From Dethiobacter sp. (GTDB lineage: Bacteria > Bacillota > Dethiobacteria > Dethiobacterales > Dethiobacteraceae), in NCBI GenBank assembly GCA_018335875.1, contig JAGXRN010000034.1:1-64000 (forward strand): a stretch of 64,000 nucleotides of DNA, written 5' to 3'. The notes below the pieces were generated by a model. That model made no database searches. It worked only from the letters and a program-made list of their open reading frames with translations, and was not told where the DNA came from. The translations under genes were made by a program, and so were the position numbers. Of this stretch, positions 20,661 through 55,690 are shown piece by piece. The first letter of the stretch is position 1; each line of letters starts with the position of its first letter.

Positions 20661-21278
20661 TTGGATAATCTTGTTGAGATTAAGAAGCTTAGTAAAGCCT
20701 ACCGCTATCGTAAGCTTTTTACAGATATCAGCACAGTCATCTCCGACCGTTCTGTTTTTGTGGTGCTCGGTCACAACGGGAGCGGAAAAACAACATTGCT
20801 GCGTATCGCCTGCGGCCTTATTTCCGCCACTTCAGGCCGGATAGATATAATCATGGGAGGAAAGCCGCTATCACCGGGTGAGCGCAGGGCGCAGATTGGC
20901 CTGGTATCGCCTGACCTGGAACTGTACGGTGAGCTGACCGCCCTTGAGAACCTTGAGTTTTTCTCCGGTGTCAGGGGGCTTCCCTACAGCAGGGAAAAGG
21001 CGCGCGAATTACTTGAATATGTAGGCCTTAAGGGCAGGGGCATTGATTATGTGGGGACATATTCGTCGGGTATGAAGCAGCGTATGAAGTTTGCTTATGC
21101 CCTGCTGCACGACCCTCATATCCTTGTTCTGGACGAGCCAACAAGCAACCTGGACGAAGAAGGGATCGCCATGGTTGACAATGTTATCAGGCGTCAGAGG
21201 GAACGCGGGATAGTTATAATGGCTACAAATGAGCCAAGGGAGGTGTCTTATGCCGACCAGACGCTTAACTTGGGTTAG
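20661..21278 (+). CDS. ccmA: Heme exporter ABC ATPase CcmA
   Basis: 205 aa ATPase of the CcmABC(D) complex that loads heme on CcmE. Walker A GHNGSGKTT, signature YSSGMKQRMKFAYALLHD and Walker B ILVLDEPTSNLDEEG are present. TTG start at 20661 follows GCGGAGGGG. Overlaps ccmB by 29 bases. It heads a run of same-strand genes reaching to 36660 that makes heme and matures c-type cytochromes. Confidence 0.9.
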   Translation: MDNLVEIKKLSKAYRYRKLFTDISTVISDRSVFVVLGHNGSGKTTLLRIACGLISATSGRIDIIMGGKPLSPGERRAQIGLVSPDLELYGELTALENLEFFSGVRGLPYSREKARELLEYVGLKGRGIDYVGTYSSGMKQRMKFAYALLHDPHILVLDEPTSNLDEEGIAMVDNVIRRQRERGIVIMATNEPREVSYADQTLNLG

Positions 21279-21933
21279 CCGGGGAGCCGCTGTCCTGCGC
21301 AAGGATCTGCGCATAGAATTCAGGACGCGTTATGCTTACAGTGCGCTTGTTATGTTTGCCGTTACTACGCTGGTTACAGTGAGCTTTTCAGTGGGTAGTT
21401 TTGGTCTTGAAAATGACATTGCAGCAGCACTTCTTTGGATTATCCTGTTTTTTTCGGCCATGGCCGGACTTGCACGTACTTTTGTGCAGGAAGAAGAGAC
21501 AGGGACGGTGACAGCGCTTAAAATGGCAGCGGAGCCGGAACCTGTATACCTTGGCAAACTTTTTTTTAATATTTTTCTGATTTTCAGCCTGGCAATACTT
21601 ACGGTGCCCTTATTCTTGGTGATGCTCAACCTGCGTGTGGTTTCCGTCTACAGTTTTTTACTGGTGGTCATACTTGGCTGCCTTGGGTTAGCCGGGGCCA
21701 GTACCATATTGGCTGCAATAGTCTCCAAAGCCGGTGCCAAGGGATCACTGCTCACAGTTCTGGCTTTCCCGATTTTGCTTCCTCTTTTAATCGGCGCCAT
21801 TAATGCAACCCGTTCGGCCATGTCCGGAGTGACGCCGGAGATCATCAGGCCGGATCTGCACCTGCTTTTATTTTATAACGGTATGGCTATCGTGGCTTCC
21901 CTGTTATTATTTGAATATGTCTGGAATGAATAA
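21250..21933 (+). CDS. ccmB: Heme exporter permease CcmB
   Basis: 227 aa with about six membrane segments. Family motifs: VLRKDLRIEFRTRYAYSALV at the N-terminus and LARTFVQEEETGTVTALK. ATG 21250 is taken because AAGGGAGGTG precedes it; the upstream ATG 21229 lies deep in ccmA. Acts with CcmA and CcmC in heme handling on the outside of the membrane. Confidence 0.9.
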   Translation: MPTRRLTWVSRGAAVLRKDLRIEFRTRYAYSALVMFAVTTLVTVSFSVGSFGLENDIAAALLWIILFFSAMAGLARTFVQEEETGTVTALKMAAEPEPVYLGKLFFNIFLIFSLAILTVPLFLVMLNLRVVSVYSFLLVVILGCLGLAGASTILAAIVSKAGAKGSLLTVLAFPILLPLLIGAINATRSAMSGVTPEIIRPDLHLLLFYNGMAIVASLLLFEYVWNE

Positions 21934-21960
21934 AGAATTTGAGCGAGGTGAAGGAAACAG

Positions 21961-22611
21961 ATGATTTGGCAAATTATCTTAGGGGTCTGGATGACAGCCG
22001 TAATTTTAGCTTCTTTCCTTTATGTACCACCGGCAGTAGGTCTGGGTGAGATGGGGCGGATTCTTATCTACCATGTACCGTCAGCCTGGATAGCAGTACT
22101 CGCCTACCTGATGGCCATGGTAAACTCGGTTTCTTACCTGCGCAAAGGCGATATTCGCCTGGACAGGCAGGCACAGGTAAATGCGGAACTTGGCACAGTT
22201 TTCTGCATTTTGGCCACAGTTACAGGCTCCATCTGGTCAAAGGGTTCCTGGGGTATGTATTGGAACTGGGATCCCCGCCAGACATCGATAGCCGTACTGC
22301 TTATGATTTACGCCGCCTACTTTGTGCTGCGCGGTTCCATTGAGGATTCGGACAGGCGTGCCAGGTTGTCTGCGGTTTACGCCATTTTGGCCTTCCTTAC
22401 TGTGCCGTTTTTGGTTTTTATCGTGCCGCGGATTTATGCGTCTCTGCATCCGGATTATATCGGGCGAGGTAAGATGCAGATAGACAGACGCATGCTGCAG
22501 GTGTTTTTAGCCTCGCTTGCGGGGTTCACCGGGCTTTACGCCTGGATATACCAGGTACAGGTCCGCCTTGAAAATCTGTTATACAAACAAGCTATGAAAA
22601 GGGAGGCATAA
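21961..22611 (+). CDS. ccmC: Heme-handling protein CcmC
   Basis: 216 aa, six-span heme-handling protein. The tryptophan-rich motif is present as GSWGMYWNWDPRQTS, flanked by the heme-ligand histidine regions (YHVPSAW and SLHPDYIGRG). It transfers heme to CcmE. Two bases separate it from ccmD. Confidence 0.92.
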   Translation: MIWQIILGVWMTAVILASFLYVPPAVGLGEMGRILIYHVPSAWIAVLAYLMAMVNSVSYLRKGDIRLDRQAQVNAELGTVFCILATVTGSIWSKGSWGMYWNWDPRQTSIAVLLMIYAAYFVLRGSIEDSDRRARLSAVYAILAFLTVPFLVFIVPRIYASLHPDYIGRGKMQIDRRMLQVFLASLAGFTGLYAWIYQVQVRLENLLYKQAMKREA

Positions 22612-22613
22612 GC

Positions 22614-22730
22614 ATGAGCGAACTTAATTTTGTGCTCGGCGTTACCTTGATTACCTGGCTCGGGGTTTTTATTTATCTTTTTAGGATTGACCGCAAGGTA
22701 AAGGAGGCACAGCGGCGTGAAGAGATATGA
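22614..22730 (+). CDS. ccmD: CcmD-like small membrane protein
   Basis: 38 aa: one hydrophobic segment (NFVLGVTLITWLGVFIYLF) followed by a basic tail, the normal CcmD shape, with GGGAGG upstream. Its position between ccmC and ccmE is what identifies it; sequence conservation in this family is low. Stop overlaps the ccmE start by 14 bases. Confidence 0.75.
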   Translation: MSELNFVLGVTLITWLGVFIYLFRIDRKVKEAQRREEI

Positions 22731-23082
22731 TAAACTCGTCCTGCTGCTCTTACTTGCCGTGTTTGCCGTTGGTGGTTACAGGACAATTATCAGTGCAATG
22801 ACTCCTTATGTCAGCTTTGCTTATGCGGAGCAGGCTGCAAAATCTGTACAGGTAAAGGGTTATCCCATTGAAGGCTCTATTATGCTGTTAGAGGATGAGG
22901 CCTTCTCTTTCATCATGGAAGATTTGGAAGGCGGCAATGCCACAATCTACCATAAGGGCACCATACCGCAGAATCTCATGGAAGCCGAAAGTGTTGTAGT
23001 GGTTGGGCGTTTTGAGGATGGGGGATTTGTAGCACAGAACATCCTTGTAAAGTGCCCTTCAAAATACCAGGCGCAGCAATAA
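22717..23082 (+). CDS. ccmE: Heme chaperone CcmE, CxxxY type
   Basis: 121 aa, N-terminal membrane anchor then a small beta-barrel. Classical CcmE binds heme covalently through His in HxxxY. Here the site is Cys113 in CPSKY (CxxxY), as in the variant described for Desulfovibrio and archaea ('System I*'). GTG start at 22717. The partners CcmF and CcmH of System I are not present; instead ResB/CcsA genes follow 41 bases later. Confidence 0.85.
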   Translation: MKRYDKLVLLLLLAVFAVGGYRTIISAMTPYVSFAYAEQAAKSVQVKGYPIEGSIMLLEDEAFSFIMEDLEGGNATIYHKGTIPQNLMEAESVVVVGRFEDGGFVAQNILVKCPSKYQAQQ

Positions 23083-23123
23083 ATAAAACGGGCTAAAAAA
23101 TTATATCTTTTGGGGGGATAAAG

Positions 23124-24452
23124 TTGACTAACGATACTCCGGGCTTGCCGGAACAGGCTCCTGTTCAGGAAAGTCCAGTGCGCCAGATTCTTAAATTCTT
23201 AAGTTCCATGCAGCTGGGAATCATACTTCTCCTGTTGCTGGCGGTTATCTCTATCTATGCCGCTACCTGGAAGGAACATCAGGTAGCTATCAGTTCTGTC
23301 TATTCTTCGTGGTGGTTTATCGGCATTATGGTTTTTACCGCCTTGAACCTACTGCTTTGCACCGTTGAGCGCATCCGGCCTACCTGGCGCCAGGCTTTCA
23401 ACCCCCGTCGGGTGATGAAGGCTGAAGCGATTAAAAGAATGCCTGTGAACAGGTCTATCAAAGTAAAGCAGGCAGGCACTCAGCCTTTGGAGCGGTTAGA
23501 ACAGGTATTCCGCGCTAACAGGTTAAAATCTTCAGTCAGCGACAGCCCTGATGGGCAGGTCCTCTTTGGTGAGAGCGGCAGGTATGGATATTTTGGTTCT
23601 GTTGTTACCCATTTGAGCCTTCTGCTCATTTTGCTTGCTGCCATGTTCGGGGGAATGACAGGCTTTGAAACTCGTGATGGCGGCTATGCCGGGACCATAT
23701 TCAATGTGCCGCAGGGCAACTTTCAGGCAGTGATTAACAATGTCACCTTGCAATACCTGCCCGAGGGGCCGCAGGTCAGGCCAAGAGCCATCAGTGATGT
23801 TACTGTCTCTCGTAACGGAAATGTTATTAAGCAAGGCAAAATATCTATCAATGAGCCGCTTCGTTTCGGGGGCATTGCTCTTTACCACACTACTTTCCTC
23901 TGGGTATCGGAAGTGACTGTGTCCGACCCCGATTCGGGCACTGTTTTAGAGCAATTCAAGCTTTATGAACGCGACAGGTATTACATGCATGAGATGGGTT
24001 TTTACATTGATTCTCTGGCCTTTTTCCCAGACTTCAGCATGACAGGCATGGGTCAGCCCATAACGCGCAGCTACGCCACAACAAGGCCGGTCCTGGCTTA
24101 CCAGGTAGGTTACCCCAATGGAAAGACTGAACAGTGGGCGCTGCTTGATTTGAATGAGCCGCAACTGGTGGAGACAGAGAATGGTCCAATAGTACTGACA
24201 CTGAATGGCTTCGAGAACGCCGCAGTTTTTAACATCATTAAAAACCTCGGCCGCCCGTATCTGTTTGCAGGCTCGCTGCTAATGGTAATCGGCTTGTATA
24301 TGAGCTTTTTCCTCTTTCCGCGGCGCTTTTGGGCGGTGTTTGACAGTAAAAGTTCGTCGTTTCTGGTCGGTGGTCGCAGCAGGAACAAGCTTGGCCTTGA
24401 GTCTGTCTTTGACCGCATCGAGGAAGAAATCAGCAAAAGAGAGGAAGAGTAG
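23124..24452 (+). CDS. resB: ResB/Ccs1-like cytochrome c biogenesis protein
   Basis: 442 aa. Three N-terminal membrane segments (LKFLSSMQLGIILLLLLAVISI is the diagnostic first one), a large outside domain and a last segment near residues 375-395 (GRPYLFAGSLLMVIGLYMSFF). It belongs to System II, where ResB with CcsA forms the heme lyase for CxxCH motifs. TTG start at 23124 behind GGGGGGA. Next gene starts 2 bases after its stop. Confidence 0.9.
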   Translation: MTNDTPGLPEQAPVQESPVRQILKFLSSMQLGIILLLLLAVISIYAATWKEHQVAISSVYSSWWFIGIMVFTALNLLLCTVERIRPTWRQAFNPRRVMKAEAIKRMPVNRSIKVKQAGTQPLERLEQVFRANRLKSSVSDSPDGQVLFGESGRYGYFGSVVTHLSLLLILLAAMFGGMTGFETRDGGYAGTIFNVPQGNFQAVINNVTLQYLPEGPQVRPRAISDVTVSRNGNVIKQGKISINEPLRFGGIALYHTTFLWVSEVTVSDPDSGTVLEQFKLYERDRYYMHEMGFYIDSLAFFPDFSMTGMGQPITRSYATTRPVLAYQVGYPNGKTEQWALLDLNEPQLVETENGPIVLTLNGFENAAVFNIIKNLGRPYLFAGSLLMVIGLYMSFFLFPRRFWAVFDSKSSSFLVGGRSRNKLGLESVFDRIEEEISKREEE

Positions 24453-24454
24453 CC

Positions 24455-25357
24455 ATGAGTGGTTTAATTAAGGTTTCTCCCACGGGCTTGCTTATTGAAA
24501 ATACGCTTTTTATCCTGGCCTGCCTTATCTACCTGCTGGCGACGATTGGGTATGTAATAAACCTTTTTGGTAAAAAAGAATGGGGCAGCTTTGCCTCCAG
24601 CGTGCTCCGGGTTGCCTTTATTGTTCACACCGGCTTTATTGCGGCAAGGACGATAAATGTAATGCGAGTTCCTTTTGTGGGCCACTTTGAATTCGGCAAC
24701 CTGTTTATTTGGGCTACTGTACTTGTTTATATCTGGACCGAATGGCGACTCAAAGATAAGTACTACGCAGTAGGTGCTTTTCTGACACCCGTGGTTGTAC
24801 TGTATATCGCCTACCTGACAGTAATCCCGAAAATTTTTACCAGAATCGCCGTCAGTTCCGCCCACAACCCTCTCCCCCCTGTCCTGCAATCTTTCTGGCT
24901 GAAGATCCACGTCAGTTCTTCTGTGATGGGTTATGCGGGATTTTCGCTTGCTTTTGCAGCTGCGGTGATGTGGCTGCTGAAAAACGGGATGGAAGAAAAA
25001 GGCCTGTCTAAAAACGCTTCTTTTTCAAAAACACTGGCCCAGGCGCTGCCACAGCTGAAGATTCTCGAGGAGTATATGTACCGTGCATCGGCTTTTGGCT
25101 TTCTTTTTCAGACAGTAATGATTATAACCGGCGCTGTGTGGGCGGATTATGCCTGGAGCCGCTACTGGGGCTGGGACCCTAAAGAAATGTGGTCGCTTAT
25201 TACCTGGTTTGTGTTTGCTGTTTATCTGCATGCCCGCTTTACCCGCGGCTGGACCGGCAAACGGACTGTGGTACTGGTCATGGTGGGCTGGGTTGCCATG
25301 ATGTTTACCTGGCTCGGTGTAGCCTGGCTGTTATCAGGCATTCACTCTTTCGGTTAA
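24455..25357 (+). CDS. ccsA: CcsA/ResC-like cytochrome c heme lyase subunit
   Basis: 300 aa, about eight membrane segments. The WWD heme motif is WSRYWGWDPKEMWSLITW, with conserved histidines nearby (KIHVSSSVMGY, YLHARFTRGW). Works with ResB just upstream. The pair most likely takes heme delivered by CcmABCDE, an unusual combination. Confidence 0.92.
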   Translation: MSGLIKVSPTGLLIENTLFILACLIYLLATIGYVINLFGKKEWGSFASSVLRVAFIVHTGFIAARTINVMRVPFVGHFEFGNLFIWATVLVYIWTEWRLKDKYYAVGAFLTPVVVLYIAYLTVIPKIFTRIAVSSAHNPLPPVLQSFWLKIHVSSSVMGYAGFSLAFAAAVMWLLKNGMEEKGLSKNASFSKTLAQALPQLKILEEYMYRASAFGFLFQTVMIITGAVWADYAWSRYWGWDPKEMWSLITWFVFAVYLHARFTRGWTGKRTVVLVMVGWVAMMFTWLGVAWLLSGIHSFG

Positions 25358-25410: not shown

Positions 25411-26745
25411 TTGACAGAAATACTTGTCGTAGGAATAAACCATAAAACAGCACCTGTTGCATTACGCGAGAAGCTGTCATTCACTGATAGCCAGTTGGCT
25501 CGTTCTCTTGCTTACTGTAAGGAGTGCTCAGATGTTGGTGAAGCCGTCATTCTGACCACCTGCAACCGCACTGAGATATATGCCGCGGGCAGGGAAAATA
25601 ACTCCTGCCTGGAGAAGGTTATGTCCATGCTTGCGGAAATAAAAGAAATTGATACAGCAGCTATTCGGCCCAGTTTGTATCAGTTTACTCAGCAGGAGGC
25701 CGTGGAGCATCTGTTTAAAGTTACCGCCGGGCTTGATTCTATGATTCTCGGTGAAACACAGATTCTCGGGCAGGTTAAAGAGGCCTATACAAAAGCCAAT
25801 GACGCAGGCTGTGTAAATACTGTATTTCATGCCCTTTTCCGCCAGGCGGTTACTTCAGCCAAACGTGTCCAGACCGAGACGGCGATCAATCAAAACGCCG
25901 CCTCGGTTTCCTATGCTGCTGTGGAACTGGCAAAAAAAATTTTCCGGCGGCTTGATGACCGTACTGTGCTTGTAATCGGTGCCGGTAAAATGAGCGAGTT
26001 GGCGCTTCGTCATCTTTATGACCAGGGAGTCAAGCGCGTGGTGGTGGTAAACCGGACTAAGTCACGAGCAGACAAGCTGGCGGCCTGTTTCGGCGGCTTT
26101 TCAGAGGACTATGAAAACAGGCAGGAGTGGCTGGTTAAGGCTGATATAGTAATTTCATCAACTGGCGCTCCCCACTTTGTCCTCAAAAAGGAGGAAATCG
26201 CCTCCGCTATGCGCTCCCGCCGGGGCAAGCCCATATTCCTTATTGATATTGCCGTTCCCCGTGATATCGACCCTCAGGTTAACAGTCTGGAAAATGTGTA
26301 TCTCTACGACATTGATGACCTGCAGGCTGTGGTTTCGGCTAATATGAAAGAACGGGAGCAGGAGGCAAAAAAAGCCCAGGTAATTCTCAACGAGGAGATA
26401 ACAGCCTTCCAGGTATGGTTCAAGACCCAGGAGGTTGTGCCGCTGATCGCAGCGCTCAGGCGTAAAGCCGAGGGTATCCGGCAGGATGAACTGACCCACT
26501 CACTACAAAAACTCTCAGCTCTTTCAGAAAAGGAAAAAAAGTATGTTGATAACCTGACGAGAGCCATAGTGAACCGTATCCTCCGTGAGCCGGTGCTGCG
26601 TATTAAGGAATTTGCAGTTGAGGACAATAGCCAGATTTATGCCGCCTCACTCTGTCATCTTTTTGACCTTAACGAGGATGTTAACAGCCAACCAGACTGG
26701 CAGGAACAGCCAGCAGTAAAGGATGCTGAGGGGGGACTGTCATGA
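25411..26745 (+). CDS. hemA: Glutamyl-tRNA reductase
   Basis: 444 aa. First step of C5-route tetrapyrrole synthesis. Motifs: VVGINHKTAPVALREKL, active-site Cys in LTTCNRTEIYA, ILGETQILGQVKEAY and the NADPH site VLVIGAGKMSELAL. TTG start at 25411 preceded by a GAGGTG ribosome site. Overlaps the next gene by 4 bases. Confidence 0.95.
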   Translation: MTEILVVGINHKTAPVALREKLSFTDSQLARSLAYCKECSDVGEAVILTTCNRTEIYAAGRENNSCLEKVMSMLAEIKEIDTAAIRPSLYQFTQQEAVEHLFKVTAGLDSMILGETQILGQVKEAYTKANDAGCVNTVFHALFRQAVTSAKRVQTETAINQNAASVSYAAVELAKKIFRRLDDRTVLVIGAGKMSELALRHLYDQGVKRVVVVNRTKSRADKLAACFGGFSEDYENRQEWLVKADIVISSTGAPHFVLKKEEIASAMRSRRGKPIFLIDIAVPRDIDPQVNSLENVYLYDIDDLQAVVSANMKEREQEAKKAQVILNEEITAFQVWFKTQEVVPLIAALRRKAEGIRQDELTHSLQKLSALSEKEKKYVDNLTRAIVNRILREPVLRIKEFAVEDNSQIYAASLCHLFDLNEDVNSQPDWQEQPAVKDAEGGLS

Positions 26746-27572
26746 GCGGGACAGGGCTTGCTTTATATATCCTGACCCTTTGCCTGTACTTTGCAGCAGC
26801 TGTTGTTTTCCTGCTCGACATGACGGGCGCTGAAAACAATAATCCCTTTAAAACCGGGCGCCTTTTACTGATTGGCGGGTTGATGCTGCTTACACTGCTC
26901 ATCTTCAGCCGCAGCCTTACCTTCCGCTATCTTCCGCTTCTCACTTTTCACGAGACTCTTCTCCTGCTTGCCTGGGTGGCCACGCTGGTAGTCCTGGCTC
27001 TGGAGCGCGCCTATCAGTTTAAGGCTGTCTATTCCTTCATGATGCCGCTGCTTTTTTTAGCGCTGTTTCTCGCTCTCTTTTTTGCAGCAGCCGGAGTGAA
27101 TCCGGCGCCCGAGCTGCGCAGCGGCTGGCTTATCAGCCACATTGTTTCTGTAATAATGGCATACGGCACATTTGCCGTTTCCTTTGTAGTTTCAATCATG
27201 TATTTGGTGGTTGACTATTATCTCAAGAAGAAAAAAATATCCTCCTTGCTATTAGGCCTGCCAAGCCTGGACTCACTTGATTTTTATATCTACAGGCTTG
27301 TTACGGTAGGTTTCTTTTTGCTGACAGTAAGCATTATTCTTGGCGCCATGTGGGCCAACACAGTGTGGGGGGAATTCTGGCGTTGGGAACCCAAAGAAAT
27401 TTGGGCGGCAGTTACCTGGATTATCTATGCCGCCTACCTTCATACACGCCTGCTTTCAGGCTGGCAGGGACGCAAAGTTGCACTGCTCAATTCATTCGGC
27501 TTTGCCACGGTGCTCTTTAATTATGTATTTGTCCGCTTTTTCCTCACTGGCGGGATGCATCGGTTTTTCTAG
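26742..27572 (+). CDS. hemX: HemX/CcsA-like membrane protein
   Basis: 276 aa, eight membrane segments and a degenerate tryptophan motif, VWGEFWRWEPKEIWAAVTW. Position between hemA and hemC matches HemX of Bacillus, which lowers HemA abundance. It is a second CcsA-family member in the window, so a role in heme transport or lyase work is also possible. Confidence 0.8.
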   Translation: MSGTGLALYILTLCLYFAAAVVFLLDMTGAENNNPFKTGRLLLIGGLMLLTLLIFSRSLTFRYLPLLTFHETLLLLAWVATLVVLALERAYQFKAVYSFMMPLLFLALFLALFFAAAGVNPAPELRSGWLISHIVSVIMAYGTFAVSFVVSIMYLVVDYYLKKKKISSLLLGLPSLDSLDFYIYRLVTVGFFLLTVSIILGAMWANTVWGEFWRWEPKEIWAAVTWIIYAAYLHTRLLSGWQGRKVALLNSFGFATVLFNYVFVRFFLTGGMHRFF

Positions 27573-36718: not shown

Positions 36719-37795
36719 TTGTCTGTGCGCCAAGTGTTTTTGTTTTTCTCCGTCCTGGTTTTGCTTGCTGCTGCGGGATGCACTGCAAGATACTCAGATT
36801 CTGCCGCTAGCGGAGAAGACACCTGTGTGTCCTGCCACGGCGAGACCGCCCGCTTTGTTTCGGCCTCGGTGCACGGCACAGAGGGCTTAGGCTGCAGCCA
36901 CTGCCACTCTGAAGCCGCTGCTCACCTAAAGGACAGGCGTGTCTCACCCGGTGTTGATTATTCCGGCGCTACCTGTGCGGTCTGCCACGGGACAGAATAC
37001 CATGAGTGGACATCATCACCCCATGCTGTGATACCACTTAACCTGCTGCCCAATGATACGCGTATCATGGAATGCCTGAAATGCCACCAGGCGGGCGGGT
37101 TTGCTGCAGTATTGGCAAGCGGTGGCAACTTTAAAAACGCCAAGGCTCCGCCACCCACCAGAGAGCCCGAGCCAGTCACCTGTGTTGCCTGCCACACGCC
37201 GCATGGCGGAACCGACTATAAACTGCTGCGGCTGCCCAAAGAAGAACTTTGTGCCGCCTGTCATGGCGGCAAATGGCAGAACCTGGTGCTAAACGGTACA
37301 GGAGGCCACCAATACCCGGGACGTGATTACACTGTTTTTTCTGCTCACCCGCACAACAGCGTCGGGCATTGTGCAACCTGCCATATGGCACGTACTCCGG
37401 GAGCGGATGGCGTGGGAGGGCATACATTCAGTATGCGAGCAAAAGACGGCGGGCAGCAAAACACAGGCGCCTGTGCCGCTTGTCACGGTGAAACTGAGGA
37501 TTATAATATAAGCGGCAGGCAGCACGAAGTTGATGCGCTGCTTATACAACTGCGCACCGTCCTTGAGGAGCGCAACAACGGCAGCCTGCCCGGTTTTCAG
37601 CCCGGCGCCTGCAACCAGTGTCATCGCGGCGGCACGCTGCCGTTTGATGACGACCCGGAGTTAATACTTGAGGAAGCCTATGAAAATTACAAACTGGTGG
37701 ACCGTGACAAGTCACGTGGGGTTCACAACCCGGGCTATGCCCTACAGCTGCTGCGTGACAGCCTGGAAAGCGTGAAAAAAGAATATAGCCGCTAG
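36719..37795 (+). CDS. Nonaheme c-type cytochrome lipoprotein
   Basis: 358 aa with nine CxxCH motifs (CVSCH, CSHCH, CAVCH, CLKCH, CVACH, CAACH, CATCH, CAACH, CNQCH). The N-terminus is a lipoprotein signal (VLLAAAGC, Cys near residue 20). The C-terminal segment DRDKSRGVHNPGYALQLL resembles the end of doubled-CXXCH and NrfA-related cytochromes. Start taken at TTG 36719 with only a weak GGGG site, so it is unsure; GTG 36725 is an alternative. An electron-carrier role outside the membrane is inferred; no catalytic CxxCK motif is seen. Confidence 0.85.
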   Translation: MSVRQVFLFFSVLVLLAAAGCTARYSDSAASGEDTCVSCHGETARFVSASVHGTEGLGCSHCHSEAAAHLKDRRVSPGVDYSGATCAVCHGTEYHEWTSSPHAVIPLNLLPNDTRIMECLKCHQAGGFAAVLASGGNFKNAKAPPPTREPEPVTCVACHTPHGGTDYKLLRLPKEELCAACHGGKWQNLVLNGTGGHQYPGRDYTVFSAHPHNSVGHCATCHMARTPGADGVGGHTFSMRAKDGGQQNTGACAACHGETEDYNISGRQHEVDALLIQLRTVLEERNNGSLPGFQPGACNQCHRGGTLPFDDDPELILEEAYENYKLVDRDKSRGVHNPGYALQLLRDSLESVKKEYSR

Positions 37796-37803
37796 AGTAT
37801 TAA

Positions 37804-37840
37804 CAGGGACAGCAAAAGCTGTCCCGTTTCATTTTATTTG
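37804..37840 (+). terminator. Terminator after the nonaheme cytochrome
   Basis: GGGACAGC-AAAA-GCTGTCCC followed by GTTTCATTTTATTT. Downstream, 37841-38100 holds no gene but has an inverted repeat AGCCATA/TATGGCT (about 37867-37889) and a long leader before the selenoprotein gene. Confidence 0.8.
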
Positions 37841-38100
37841 TACAAAGATGTCAGTAAAGATTCCAGCCATAAGATTTGTTTATGGCTATTGTATATAGGT
37901 ATGGATGCAACACAGGGAAATACCTTACGCACTTCGAATATAATTAATCATATAGTTTAAGTTATAGTATCCCGTGTGAGTTTGTCCATATTGGTGAAAG
38001 TGATAACTATAACAATACGTAGAGGGGGTGGGTTCAGCATTCAATGATGTATAAGTTGCAGACATTGCCGGTACATACCAAAACAAAGGAGGAAGAGTAG

Positions 38101-38904
38101 ATGCCAAACGAAAAAGTGAAAGAGTTAACAAGGAGGAAGTTCTTACACGGGGCAGGGACTTCTCTCGCCGGACTTGCCTTGGCTGGCAGCGTGGGATTGC
38201 TGCTGCCGGGGTGCACGAAGCAAGCAACACCAGCACCGGTGGCGGCGCCGGACCCTGTAATCGGGGTACCCCAATGGCCTTTAAGCTACGTAAAGCTGGA
38301 CCCCGCTGCGGCGGAGAAAAAAGCCTATGACGCCTATATGAAGGACGGGTGAGGCTACGGCGCTGCTGAGGGGACCCTCGGCTATTTGGCAGAAGTAGTG
38401 GGTTATCCTTTTAACCAAATTCCCACAGAAGGTTTTTCAGCTTTTAAATCCGGCGTCCACGGTTGGGGCTCAATCTGTGGTGCGCTGGTGCCTGCTATCT
38501 ATGCAATAAACGTGGTGGCAGAAGGCGATGATCAAGTCAAGATGATTAACGAACTGATGGCCTGGTACAAAGACACTCCTTTCCCCATCTACCAACCCAA
38601 GGGCATGAACCTGCCAACTACTGTGGCAGACTCCAGCTTGTGCCATGTTTCAGTCACAAAATTTATGCAGGCTATGAACATTCCCCGTGATGCACCGGAG
38701 CGCAAGGAGCGCTGCGGCGGACTGACGGCGGATGTGGCGAAGTTTACAGTGGCTATGCTGAATGACTTTGCAGACAAGAAGTTGGCCACAGGTGTATTCA
38801 AGCCATCTGCTGTTGTGGGCGAGTGTATGGCCTGCCACAGCAAATTGGAATGGGCTCATGGCAAGGAAACCTGCACCTCGTGCCACGGCGACCCGCATAA
38901 GTAA
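38101..38904 (+). CDS. Tat-exported split-Soret-like diheme cytochrome with selenocysteine (C_GCAxxG_C_C family)
   Basis: 267 codons including an in-frame TGA at 38350-38352, read as Sec84. The frame is continuous on both sides: 83 residues before it hold a Tat signal (TRRKFLHGAG) with lipobox Cys38 (LPGC), and 183 after it hold the rest of the domain. The Sec stands where the family's first conserved Cys belongs (MKDG-Sec-GYGAAEG), followed by GSICGAL, LCHVSV and ERCGGLT. Two heme motifs end the protein, CMACH and CTSCH, as in Desulfovibrio split-Soret cytochrome, which also binds an FeS centre. AAGGAGGAAG precedes the ATG. Activity unknown; selA, selB and selD are in the same window. Confidence 0.85.
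38365..38382 (+). promoter_or_regulatory. Candidate bacterial SECIS stem-loop
   Basis: Twelve bases after the TGA, GCTGAGG-GGAC-CCTCGGC forms a 7-bp stem (one G-T pair) with loop GGAC. Distance and a G-rich apical loop fit the bacterial SECIS pattern recognised by SelB. The sequence also codes for protein. Confidence 0.6.
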
Positions 38905-38930
38905 GCTTCAAACTTCCATGCTTTTTGCAG

Positions 38931-38962
38931 GCAGGGACAGCAACCGCTGTCCCTGCTTTTTA
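38931..38962 (+). terminator. Terminator after the selenocysteine cytochrome
   Basis: GCAGGGACAGC-AACC-GCTGTCCCTGC followed by TTTTTATT. The following 225 bases to 39187 hold no gene apart from the repeat noted next. Confidence 0.9.
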
Positions 38963-38966
38963 TTGT

Positions 38967-38991
38967 CGTCAAGGAAATTATAGCATACCTT
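38967..38991 (+). repeat. Second copy of a 25-bp intergenic repeat
   Basis: CGTCAAGGAAATTATAGCAT then ACCTT; differs from 11543-11567 at one base. The rest of the element at 11.5 kb is not found here, so this is a partial copy directly after a terminator. Confidence 0.7.
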
Positions 38992-39187
38992 CTACTTTTT
39001 ATCTCCAGTACATTCCATGGGAAAAAATACATTCAAAATCCGACAAATTTGTGTATAAAATGTGTCGAAAAAAGAAGGTGTTTATGTCAACCAAGTGAAT
39101 AGTTATATTGCTCACAAGCGAGATGACTCAGCAGAGAGCGTCAACTCAAAATAATTTGTTGGTTTATAGTTTTCAGGGGGTGTTCAA

Positions 39188-39892
39188 ATGCAAAGATTGA
39201 AGATCTTTAAGGGTCTTTCCCATGGTGCCAGAAGGGGGCTTTATGCAGCGGGGGCTGTTTTTGCCTGCATAATCTTTATTTTCCTGCTGACCTTGGCAGC
39301 GGATGCACGGAAGCCGGAATTCTGTGCCAACTGTCATCTGATACAGCCTTATTACTACACCTGGGAAAACTCTCCCCACAGCAAAGTCAATTGTCTTGAA
39401 TGCCATGTTGAGCAGGGTACAGGTTTTGTAGCGATACAGGCACGGGGTTTGAAAAACCTGTCTGTTTATAGAGCGGGAGATGTAGACCCGCCAATTACCG
39501 GCACAAAAAAAATCAGCAGTGATGTCTGCCTGCGCTGTCATTCTCCTAACAGAAAAATTACACCGTCAAAAGATCTGTCCATACCACACAGCGAGCATCT
39601 GGGCTATGGCACCGACTGTGTCGATTGCCATGTGGGCGTCAGTCACGGCGGAATCAGTGAGATGGATAAATTTAGTGTCGACGAAACTGTCCTGGCCGGT
39701 TTTAAAAATACTGACTATAACGATTTTGCCCTTACAAAGACACGCTGCCTTGAGTGCCATAATGGTATGAAAGCTACTTATAACTGCCAGGCCTGTCATA
39801 CCGAAACCCGTATTCCCAGTAACCACTCACAGACTGCCACGGTGCAGGAGACAAATGTCTGTGACTTCCAGAGTAAAACACCCTGCCGGTAA
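39188..39892 (+). CDS. NapC/NirT-like membrane-anchored hexaheme cytochrome
   Basis: 234 aa. One N-terminal membrane anchor (about residues 18-38) and six CxxCH motifs (CANCH, CLECH, CLRCH, CVDCH, CLECH, CQACH). The opening KPEFCANCHLIQPYYYTWENSPHSKVNCLECH pattern, in shorter blocks, matches NapC/NrfH quinol dehydrogenases. Role inferred: takes electrons from menaquinol and passes them to the cytochromes encoded downstream. ATG 39188 after AGGGGGTG. The last 38 bases overlap the next gene. Confidence 0.85.
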   Translation: MQRLKIFKGLSHGARRGLYAAGAVFACIIFIFLLTLAADARKPEFCANCHLIQPYYYTWENSPHSKVNCLECHVEQGTGFVAIQARGLKNLSVYRAGDVDPPITGTKKISSDVCLRCHSPNRKITPSKDLSIPHSEHLGYGTDCVDCHVGVSHGGISEMDKFSVDETVLAGFKNTDYNDFALTKTRCLECHNGMKATYNCQACHTETRIPSNHSQTATVQETNVCDFQSKTPCR

Positions 39893-41027
39893 AAAAAAAT
39901 ATTTATACTTTATACTTGCGCTGGTGACATTTCTCACAATCCTCTCTATGGGGCTTGATGTTAAACAGAATTCACCCGGTTTTTGTTCAAGCTGCCATAC
40001 CATGAAGCCCGAGTATTATACCTGGCGGTCGTCTTCTCACAGCAAGCTTGACTGCCTGGAGTGCCACCAGGCAGAGGGAGTAAAAGGAGTCCTAAGTTTA
40101 AGCAGCGACCTGGTTCGTATGACTTACGCCGAAATTACCAAATCATACATCCGACCTATCCGGCTTTTCCGCAGCATTGATGACCAGGTCTGCTTCCGCT
40201 GTCACAGCTATAACCGAAAGGCTTCACCAAAAGGCGACCTGATCATCCCACATGAAGCGCACAGTGATCGTAGTGTACGCTGTATCTCGTGCCACAGCGC
40301 AGTGGCCCACGGTGATATCGCCCGTCGCGCTATCACAAGAAGTATAGATTACTCCGCCTGGGATATGGATGAGGGGGTCCAGCAGATGGCCGGCGAGTTG
40401 GCCCGGCCCAGTATGGAAAACTGCATGTCATGTCACTATAGGCGCCGTGTCGCAACCTCCTGTGAAACCTGCCATACAGGCATGTCCGGCCCCGACAATC
40501 ATCTTCTCGCCGATTTTGGTGTAAATCACGGTACTTTTGCCAGGGATGGGCTGCAGGATTGCAACTCATGCCACGGCTACTCCGGTGAAAAGAAGCTGCA
40601 GTTCACAGAGAAAACCAGCCTTGCTCAATACACGCGTGAAAACAGATTCTGCCTCTCCTGCCACCGCACAAGGCCTCCGAGCCATGAGAACAGTATTTTT
40701 AGGAAAACCCACGGCCTCGGGCTGCAGTATGAAGACAGGGAGAAAGATGGCTGCCTGGTCTGTCACGACAACAACCGGTCCGAGCTGCCCCGGGTCACTG
40801 AAGTATCGTGTGCCCAGTGCCACCCCTCAAAGCATGGAACAAACTGGCGCAGTGGGCATCTGCCCGCACTTGCCCTGCAGGATGGGATTTCCAACACGTG
40901 CTTCCGCTGCCATTCATCCGATACCTGCCTTGGCTGTCACTACCTGCCGGGCAGCAGTACGGGGGGGTGGCGCGGCGCCCCACCGCTTGATATCTTCGAA
41001 CCTCTGCCACCCCCGATTTCCAGCTAA
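39855..41027 (+). CDS. Membrane-anchored dodecaheme cytochrome
   Basis: 390 aa. A membrane anchor near residues 15-34 (YLYFILALVTFLTILSMGL), then a NapC-like start (SPGFCSSCHTMKPEYYTWRS) and twelve CxxCH motifs in total. The first half is paralogous to the preceding hexaheme protein (compare ECHQAEG/ECHVEQG and CFRCHSYNRK/CLRCHSPNRK). The second half adds six more hemes and ends with a Pro-rich tail. Likely the next carrier of the same electron path, anchored outside the cell membrane. Confidence 0.85.
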   Translation: MSVTSRVKHPAGKKKYLYFILALVTFLTILSMGLDVKQNSPGFCSSCHTMKPEYYTWRSSSHSKLDCLECHQAEGVKGVLSLSSDLVRMTYAEITKSYIRPIRLFRSIDDQVCFRCHSYNRKASPKGDLIIPHEAHSDRSVRCISCHSAVAHGDIARRAITRSIDYSAWDMDEGVQQMAGELARPSMENCMSCHYRRRVATSCETCHTGMSGPDNHLLADFGVNHGTFARDGLQDCNSCHGYSGEKKLQFTEKTSLAQYTRENRFCLSCHRTRPPSHENSIFRKTHGLGLQYEDREKDGCLVCHDNNRSELPRVTEVSCAQCHPSKHGTNWRSGHLPALALQDGISNTCFRCHSSDTCLGCHYLPGSSTGGWRGAPPLDIFEPLPPPISS

Positions 41028-41748: not shown

Positions 41749-42894
41749 ATGCAGTCAGTCAGCAGTTTTTTAAATAAACCAATTGGACAAAAACAGGCAC
41801 GTGTTGTTTTTACCGCTCTGGTTATTTTATTGTTTGCCTATTATGGCCACCTCTTTGTTACCAGGAGGCCGCCGGTATCCACAGCCCTTGGTGCTGTACT
41901 TCCGGGGCGGGCCGGTGTACCGGTCTTTGACAGTATGATTTACGGTGAATTCGGTGATGGTCAATTTGATAAACCAATGGCGGTGACGACCGCCCACGGC
42001 CGTATCTATATCTCCGACACCAACAACAGCCGTGTACAGGTCTTTGATAATGCCGGCAGATTCCTCTTCACTTTCGGTGAAAACGGCAAGGCTCCGGGCC
42101 AGTTCCTTTATCCTTATGGCATTGCCGGCGACCGTAACGGTAATATCTACGTTGCAGAGCTTTATCTGGGACGAATACAGGTTTATGACACCGACGGCAA
42201 CTACCTGCATGATTTTGCCTCAGAGTTAACTGCAGCCGGAATCATTCAGGGGCCCGGCGACATGGTCATTGTTGACCGTACCATGTATGTTACTGATATT
42301 AACCGCAACAAGGTCCTGTTGATCGACCTTGAAAGCGGTGAGTTAATCAGGCAGGTGGGCATGCCCAACGACCTGCTTGCGCCCAATGGCGTCGCAGTTG
42401 ACGAAGCAGGCTATATATTCGTCGTTGATACCGGACGGCAGCGCGTGGTGGTCTACGACACTCACGGTAATCCTGTCCGTGTCATCAATGGCACTCCAAA
42501 CGGCCACGGCAGAGGTTCTGTGCTCATTAATCCCCGCGGTATCGGCCTTGACCGCTCGGGCCACATTTTTGTGGTAAGCAATATGTCTCACTCTGTCTTT
42601 GTCTTTAACCGGGAAGGAGAGGTTGTCCGCTCCTTTGGCGGCCAGGGAGACGGCAACAATGAGTTCATGTTTCCCCACTTTATAATCCAAACACAGTGGG
42701 CGGCCCCATGGCGGCCATTGACGGCACTAAAATCTTCAATAAATTCTTCGGTATTAACTATGGCGCTGCTTACGCTTACTTTAAAACACAGGCGGACGAA
42801 GATTATTTCTTCAATACCTACCTGCCTGAACGTTTCCCGGGACAGAACTCCGTATGGGCTGACAGGGCCGTTTTCCTGGCCGGCCTCAGGATAG
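41749..42894 (+). pseudogene. NHL-repeat beta-propeller protein, C-terminus replaced at an abrupt junction
   Basis: One membrane anchor (about residues 18-36) and then NHL repeats (FGEFGDGQFDKPMAV-like, FGENGKAPGQFLYPYG, VGMPNDLLAPNGVAV and so on). The last recognisable repeat stops at GNNEFMFPH (about 42678). Beyond it the frame runs on as low-similarity sequence to TAG 42892-42894, while another frame encodes a cytochrome. NHL proteins are common in cytochrome operons as exported scaffolds. The start is uncertain: GTG 41725 has a better, though very close, GGGGG; ATG 41749 lacks a site. Confidence 0.7.
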
Positions 42895-49131: not shown

Positions 49132-49161
49132 TCTGGAAACAAATAATGCCTCACCGCCTAG

Positions 49162-49342
49162 GTGAGGTAGAGGCGCGGTTGCCAAGAGTACTGCCTGGGA
49201 GATACGGGATTGATGAATGGGCAGGAAAGGGGTTGCCGCCGAAGCCGGCATTTCACCCGCGTGTGCCTGGCTGGGACGTCAGTGAATAACTAACGTACTG
49301 TCACCGGGAGCTGCCCTGACTCCCGGTGAAGAGCTATCTCAC
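49162..49342 (+). promoter_or_regulatory. Lysine riboswitch (L-box)
   Basis: The conserved 5' core GGTGAGGTAGAGGCGCGG and CCAAGAGTA match the L-box, as do GAAAGGGG, GCCGAAG and the closing strand. P1 is formed by GTGAGGTAG (49162-49170) with CTATCTCAC (49334-49342). It precedes lysA-dapF-dapL-asd-lysC. An upstream hairpin CCTCACC/GGTGAGG (49149-49167) can pair with the 5' strand of P1. Confidence 0.92.
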
Positions 49343-49373
49343 GGAGGGCGTTGGGGATGTGTCGAGTCTGTAA

Positions 49374-55409: not shown

Positions 55410-55429
55410 TAATTTCAAATCCATAAATT

Positions 55430-55690
55430 AAAAGCGATGAGAGGGAACAGTAAGTCCTGCTTATGACTGCAGAGAGCCGGTGGTGCTGTGAACCGGTGTC
55501 AGGGCGGAGGCTGAAATTACACCCTTGAGCAGCGGACCGAAAGATTTCGAGTAGGCTCCGACGGGTTCCCGCCGGTAAAAGGGAAAGGGCATAATCCCGT
55601 TTAGACGGGCCGTGCCTGCAAGTGGGCTTTGGCCAATTTGGGTGGTACCGCGGAAATATATCCGTCCCTTCGGGGCGGATTTTTTTATTG
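55430..55690 (+). promoter_or_regulatory. T-box leader, probably tyrosine-specific
   Basis: Contains GCGATGAGAGGGAACAGTA, AGAGAGCCGGTGG with GTGAACCGG, the conserved GGACCGAAAG region and the T-box GGGTGGTACCGCGG (55640-55653). The terminator ATCCGTCCC-TTCG-GGGCGGAT + T7 is at 55660-55687. The specifier region GAAATTACA suggests UAC (Tyr) at 55518-55520, consistent with control of aroF-tyrA-aroA; AUU (Ile) in the same stretch is the less likely reading. Confidence 0.9.

Follow-up and report, generated by a model that had tools for sequence, protein, structure and literature searches.

A ccmABCDE-resB-ccsA operon in Dethiobacter and its possible use of a cysteine-type CcmE with a ResB/CcsA cytochrome c synthase

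Systems I and II of cytochrome c maturation are taught as alternatives, in which CcmE is tied to CcmF and CcsBA is fed with heme through a channel of its own. How, then, would heme travel where the genes of both systems stand in a single operon? We address this question for a 64,000-nucleotide stretch of Dethiobacter sp. DNA (assembly GCA_018335875.1, contig JAGXRN010000034.1, positions 1 to 64,000; hereafter the window), which carries the gene order ccmA-ccmB-ccmC-ccmD-ccmE-resB-ccsA at 20661-25357, every gene lying on the plus strand. Pfam matches back six of the seven genes in this order and orientation, whereas ccmD is represented by a short frame. The features are as follows (TM, transmembrane; hybrid-only residues are described below).

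20661..21278, plus strand: ccmA, ATPase of the heme-loading complex, TTG start; Pfam ABC_tran, 2e-25
21250..21933, plus strand: ccmB, membrane subunit; Pfam CcmB, 7e-25
21961..22611, plus strand: ccmC, heme-handling protein with the WNWDP motif and both periplasmic His; Pfam CcmC, 1e-24
22614..22730, plus strand: ccmD-like, 38-residue membrane peptide, a frame found by sequence
22717..23082, plus strand: ccmE, Cys-type heme chaperone with the C-terminal KCPSKY, GTG start; Pfam CcmE, 9e-14
23124..24452, plus strand: resB (ccsB), with TM His H163 and hybrid-only RPR 219-221, H255 and R377; Pfam ResB, 5e-48
24455..25357, plus strand: ccsA (resC), with the WWD domain, P-His1 H152, TM His H259 and P-His2 H297, and hybrid-only H137, W173, W279, W286 and W291; Pfam CcsA, 2e-42

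All of these genes are intact. For ccmB we took the ATG at 21250, behind GGGAGG, as the start, the longest frame beginning at 21229. The NCBIfam CcmA model ranks only third for the ccmA product and lies under its cut-off; the ccsA product is above the cut-off of the NCBIfam CcsB-type equivalog. These assignments bear out an earlier note on this DNA, which had read System I genes through CcmE followed by ResB and CcsA, with Cys instead of His in CcmE. The same note had described CcmF and CcmH as missing. A Pfam profile search found neither within the operon, and to that extent the description stands; it fails for the genome, where both are encoded on another contig (see below). Neither promoter-like sites in the window (9, against 8.4 in shuffled sequences, no excess) nor terminator-like sites (16, against 8.8 with a standard deviation of 3.2) were used as evidence.

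The operon, hereafter the hybrid operon, is a variant built from two known systems, and the Cys-type CcmE itself was already known as System I*, with Firmicutes among its carriers (PMC3601427). System I* of Desulfovibrio, archaea and some Firmicutes likewise has CcmABCD(E), a CPSKY-type CcmE and no CcmH or CcmG in the operon, but it uses CcmF, whereas the hybrid operon has ResB-CcsA in the CcmF slot. The streamlined CcmABCEF system of Methanosarcina acetivorans resembles it in its CXXXY CcmE (PMC9084895) but is without CcmD and uses CcmF, whereas the window's operon has CcmD and no CcmF. With classical System I (Escherichia coli CcmABCDEFGH) the heme-loading module CcmABCD is held in common; CcmE, however, has Cys for His, and CcmF, CcmG and CcmH are not in the operon. 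System II (ResB/ResC, CcsB/CcsA or CcsBA) offers the likeness of a separate ResB and CcsA, the WWD domain and four heme-ligand His; unlike System II, the hybrid synthase is preceded by ccmABCDE, has hybrid-only residues and is accompanied by neither resA nor ccdA in its operon. No description of ccmABCDE-resB-ccsA was found in searches of an open-access library, and papers beyond it may hold one. One paper on Dethiobacter alkaliphilus contains no mention of CcmE, ResB, heme lyase, maturation or biogenesis (PMC10376724), and in another 'biogenesis' occurs only in table rows on other matters (PMC5609068).

Distribution of the hybrid operon and of CcmF

Among 19 genomes sampled from the order, all of one family, 17 have ResB and CcsA after CcmE. 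The window and 14 of the 16 other hybrid relatives in the family show the full order ccmABCDE-resB-ccsA; in G003 and G015, contig ends truncate the hybrid operon. In 15 of the hybrid relatives, a counterpart of the ccmD-like frame occupies the corresponding position. As judged from the Cytochrom_C_asm matches, CcmF is absent from 16 of the 17 hybrid genomes, the exception being the window's own genome (G000). G016, which has the same genus code as the hybrid genome G017, carries ccmABCDE (with a ccmD-like counterpart in the same place) followed by ccmF, and neither ResB nor CcsA. None of the maturation genes was found in G009 of this sample. As a side observation, an additional CcsA-like paralogue, 30% identical to the window's CcsA, separates ccsA from hemA in G004 (L033:8151-9152).

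The phylum sample of 398 genomes contained 84 with a match to CcmE, 115 to ResB and 82 to CcmF_C. Thirteen of the 84 CcmE genomes are without CcmF, and in 10 of these 13 CcmE directly adjoins ResB-CcsA. All ten carry the hybrid operon and belong to two families, the window's own (G005, G007, G011, G012 and G017) and a second one, f22 (G153, G183, G208, G256 and G303). The five f22 genomes all have the full order ccmABCDE-resB-ccsA and the ccmD-like counterpart in the same place; each has just two Cytochrom_C_asm matches, CcmC and CcsA, and no CcmF was found in them or in G411. CcmE without either CcmF or ResB occurs in G255, G279 and G311. The remaining 71 of the 84 CcmE genomes have CcmF as well, and at least 25 of them also have a ResB match; among the matches listed, CcmE adjoins ResB only in the window's genome. 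This co-occurrence, 10 of 13 CcmF-less genomes against 1 of 71 CcmF-bearing ones, agrees with the association of CcmE with ResB/CcsA for which the earlier note had suggested looking. Hybrid operon and CcmF are thus nearly mutually exclusive in the 398 genomes. The recurrence of the gene order in 14 further operons of the family and in five of f22 argues that it is more than chance. Because 16 of the 17 hybrid genomes of the order and the five f22 genomes are without CcmF, the hybrid operon is the sole recognisable maturation system in its CcmF-less carriers, and hence in most of its lineage. Separately, in G036, an f22 genome without a CcmE match, we noted CcmC together with a divergent 594-residue CcmF-like frame (C50:44082-46369).

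The window's genome seems to carry two maturation systems. A separate System I cluster lies on contig C9 of the same assembly (L006:7472-13872, minus strand) and encodes CcmE (CPSKY), CcmF (655 residues; CcmF_C, 7e-57), CcmH (2e-18; motif LMCADTCG), CcmC, and CcmA and CcmB, the last two identified by homology. It is surrounded by MacB/FtsX-type ABC genes and FtrD-like proteins, and no frame with two or more CXXCH was found in L006. A similar cluster order was seen in G108 (L155). We considered C9 as a contaminant of this draft assembly (85 contigs, 97.7% complete, 6.01% contamination), an explanation to which the tetranucleotide make-up lends no support: four pieces of C9 lie 0.07-0.17 from the genome's own centroid, compared with a mean of 0.124 (standard deviation 0.049) for 20 of its own pieces, one of which, L060, is itself an outlier at 0.306. 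The earlier note had proposed that a ccmF/ccmH pair elsewhere in this genome would refute its reading, and such a pair is present on C9. This is too weak a test to be decisive, because the relatives carry the hybrid operon without CcmF.

Ancestry and conserved residues of the two halves

The CcmC tree was built from 54 proteins, 23 from hybrid operons and 31 comparators. The hybrid CcmC proteins form one clade (support 100/99), and the group next to it is CcmF-coupled and includes G016 and G321 of the same class; the CcmC of C9 falls in a remote clade. The hybrid ResB proteins, 22 of the 42 in their tree, are likewise united in one clade (100/100), which sits on a long stem. On this phylogenetic evidence, a single origin is indicated both for the CcmC half and for the ResB half. 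In both trees, G303 and G153 of f22 share a branch with G005 of the window's family, a placement in favour of en bloc transfer of the operon. Over 21 operons, the distances of CcmC, CcmE, ResB and CcsA are correlated (Mantel r 0.86-0.93), a result for which shared ancestry alone would suffice. Taken together, the hybrid operon is real and conserved, and it is apparently the product of a single evolutionary event.

A scan of named genomes for the nearest relatives of CcmC was evaluated for the best 80 of 468 loci. CcmE is followed by ResB in 16 of them and by a CcmF in 54, and 14 of the 16 ResB-type loci belong to genomes that are also in the order sample. In the other 10 (L095, L100, L104, L113, L123, L125, L127, L131, L132 and L139) neither CcmF nor ResB was found; L095, L104 and L113, which are Firmicutes loci with ccmABC-ccmE and stand under an F label among the comparators of the CcmC tree, possibly use another synthase. 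None of the five f22 loci is among the best 80 of 468, so the spread of the hybrid operon seen here is a lower bound.

The active-site residues of the modules that we examined are intact. All 20 hybrid CcmA proteins keep the Walker A, signature and Walker B motifs, all 21 hybrid CcmC proteins the WNWDPR, P-His1 and P-His2 motifs, and all 21 hybrid CcmE proteins the heme-binding Cys. Among 88 conserved positions of CcmC there is no hybrid-only residue; in CcmE, 4 of 30 positions are hybrid-only, all in the N-terminus and the membrane anchor. A CPTRF C-terminus, with Phe for Tyr, was seen in two f22 CcmE proteins and in L087.

In the synthase half, every one of the 22 hybrids has ResB H163, the WWD residues and CcsA H259, P-His1 H152 and P-His2 H297. 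The ligand roles of the four His follow PMC6299221 and our alignment to 7s9y. Besides these shared residues, all 22 hybrids and none of 20 ordinary proteins have H255, A366, N374 and R377 in ResB and, in CcsA, the five hybrid-only residues listed above and others; the ResB motif RPR (219-221), too, is shared by the 22 hybrids and missing from all ordinary rows. The 20 ordinary comparators were hand-picked from the ResB matches, not random. The concentration of hybrid-only invariant residues in the synthase half is suggestive only, as the comparison sets of the two halves differ in distance. In a profile alignment, ResB RPR aligns with the Helicobacter hepaticus CcsBA stretch after Phe240/Tyr245, although that segment scores only 9.2 bits; the homologous stretch of chain 25vk_A belongs to a segment of 28.6 bits. 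This part of CcsBA is the beta-cap loop, which is described as lying directly over the active site (PMC10663686).

We also tried the hybrid-only CcsA tryptophans as copies of the CcmF channel tryptophans. Counted from the WWD domain and the TM His, E. coli W253 corresponds to W251, which is present in 20 of 20 ordinary CcsA proteins too, and the equivalent of CcmF W216 in hybrid CcsA is F214; a position-by-position identity was accordingly rejected, and the added tryptophans enter only a looser proposal, given below. The structural model of CcsA (predicted local distance difference test score, pLDDT, 89.5) matches H. hepaticus CcsBA 7s9y (Z 24.6, root mean square deviation 3.0, 275 residues aligned) as well as CcmF 6zmq (Z 22.0, 3.0, 252 aligned); both fits are expected for the family, and fold similarity therefore cannot tell the modes of heme supply apart. 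The model of ResB has a pLDDT of 90.3. With the ResB sequence alone, a search of the PDB gave no match, whereas a profile search matched CcsBA.

Routes by which heme could reach the synthase

We judge it somewhat probable that the operon encodes one hybrid pathway, in which CcmABCD supplies a Cys-type CcmE and CcmE in turn a re-adapted ResB/CcsA synthase. CcmA-D would bring heme to the outside and, in the manner of System I*, load it on the CcmE cysteine. The CcmE-heme would then dock on the ResB/CcsA complex, which would stand in for CcmF, and hand its heme to the WWD site of CcsA, from which ResB/CcsA would attach it to the CXXCH motifs of apocytochromes; this transfer from CcmE to CcsA we infer. 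The TM His pair of ResB/CcsA may hold a heme that reduces the incoming CcmE-heme, as proposed for CcmF, or may retain its old role in transport. In evolutionary terms, resB-ccsA would have taken the ccmF slot downstream of a System I* operon, once and presumably in this direction, and the hybrid operon would later have moved as a block to another family. The earlier note had suggested this route from Cys-type CcmE to ResB/CcsA; it holds up well as a genetic unit, given the absence of CcmF from 16 of 17 hybrid genomes of the order and from five of f22, but not by the note's own argument.

A tentative and rather doubtful elaboration is that ResB/CcsA, formerly a heme transporter, now receives holo-CcmE in the way that CcmF does; System II parts would then have re-invented CcmF by convergence. 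Docking would use the re-modelled beta-cap loop (RPR) and the extra His residues (ResB H255 and CcsA H137), and electrons would pass from the TM heme along the tryptophans added in the last core helix. CcmF of System I receives its heme from holo-CcmE in oxidised form, and the TM heme of CcmF has been proposed as the reductant; for CcsBA, the published view is that heme arrives by a channel from the TM site (PMC10663686).

Several observations weigh against a single pathway of this kind. The synthase keeps both TM His in 22 of 22 hybrids and may carry heme itself, like System II, and the window's own genome has a CcmF system as well. The heme domain of CcmE has no hybrid-only residue. Clade-only residues are partly expected of any separate clade, and the ordinary ResB/CcsA set is more distant than that of CcmC; at the positions of the extra CcsA tryptophans, Phe or Tyr is frequent in ordinary CcsA, and by eye these tryptophans seem to lie off the positions of both CcmF channel tryptophans. 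Finally, no Cytochrome_C7 match was found in six of the 24 genomes searched (G009, G011, G012, G014, G015 and G303), so clients are not shown for all carriers.

The retained histidines lead to an alternative that we regard as unlikely, in which ResB/CcsA moves its own heme through the TM His channel while CcmABCDE serves as an auxiliary supply, for example when heme is scarce or oxidised. The 22 hybrids all have the four ligand His that are found in transport-competent CcsBA (PMC6299221), but CcmF, too, keeps two TM His without transporting heme (PMC10663686), and an optional supply would not predict a full ccmABCDE with intact motifs in every complete hybrid operon. Less likely still is that the operon merely houses unrelated modules, an ordinary System II synthase beside a CcmABCDE that serves another heme customer or heme export. 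System II does run without CcmABCE in Bacillus subtilis and H. hepaticus (PMC3884852), and an unlinked DsbD_TM (CcdA-type) protein is present in 21 of the 24 genomes searched. Independent modules are, however, hard to reconcile with the in-place swap with ccmF in G016, the near mutual exclusion with CcmF across the phylum sample, the apparent block transfer to f22 and the re-modelled ResB/CcsA, and the operon contains no other heme customer. That the window's operon is a remnant, or works together with the C9 cluster, its CcmE feeding the CcmF of C9, is highly improbable: the two clusters do share one assembly, but C9 has its own CcmA, CcmB, CcmC and CcmE, with a CcmC of a remote clade, while the window genes are all intact and 16 relatives have only the hybrid operon.

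Neighbouring genes, candidate clients and meaning

The surroundings of the operon include genes of heme biosynthesis and multiheme cytochromes.

25411..26745, plus strand: hemA, a heme biosynthesis neighbour, the next gene and outside the system
26742-27572: CcsA-like paralogue, after hemA
36719..41027, plus strand: multiheme c-type cytochrome genes with 9, 6 and 12 CXXCH

The product of the first gene is named hemA from what we take to be its family, and the CcsA-like paralogue is presumably HemX, a name that rests on gene position. A hemA homologue follows the operon in the seven relatives with enough contig. The multiheme cytochromes from 36719 are likely clients of the operon. An NHL-repeat-like frame overlaps a multiheme frame at 42663-42894, the two being read in different phases; by eye, the end of the NHL-repeat-like frame looks out of frame, like one gene split by a frameshift. 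In f22, a frame with four CXXCH lies beside the hybrid operon in five of five loci (L149-L153), and the two such frames that we tested both match Cytochrom_C552, the NrfA family (1e-102). Of the 24 genomes searched, 18 gave Cytochrome_C7 matches, and G005 alone accounts for 19 of these matches. Elsewhere in the window, Rfam matches over the gathering score mark a lysine riboswitch (49160-49344) and a T-box leader (55428-55672).

Dethiobacter is described as Gram-positive and endospore-forming (PMC5609068), a kinship on which the earlier note's term 'monoderm' may be taken as probable for the source of the window. D. alkaliphilus AHT1 encodes 31 multiheme cytochromes, 17 of which are reported to be differentially expressed (PMC10376724). 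Since this cultured relative expresses many multiheme cytochromes, a laboratory test would be practical there, provided that it carries the operon. If true, a natural union of CcmE with CcsBA would mean that the modules for delivering and for attaching heme can be separated, and it would offer a genetic handle on the release of heme from Cys-bound CcmE and on the purpose of the TM heme of the synthase.

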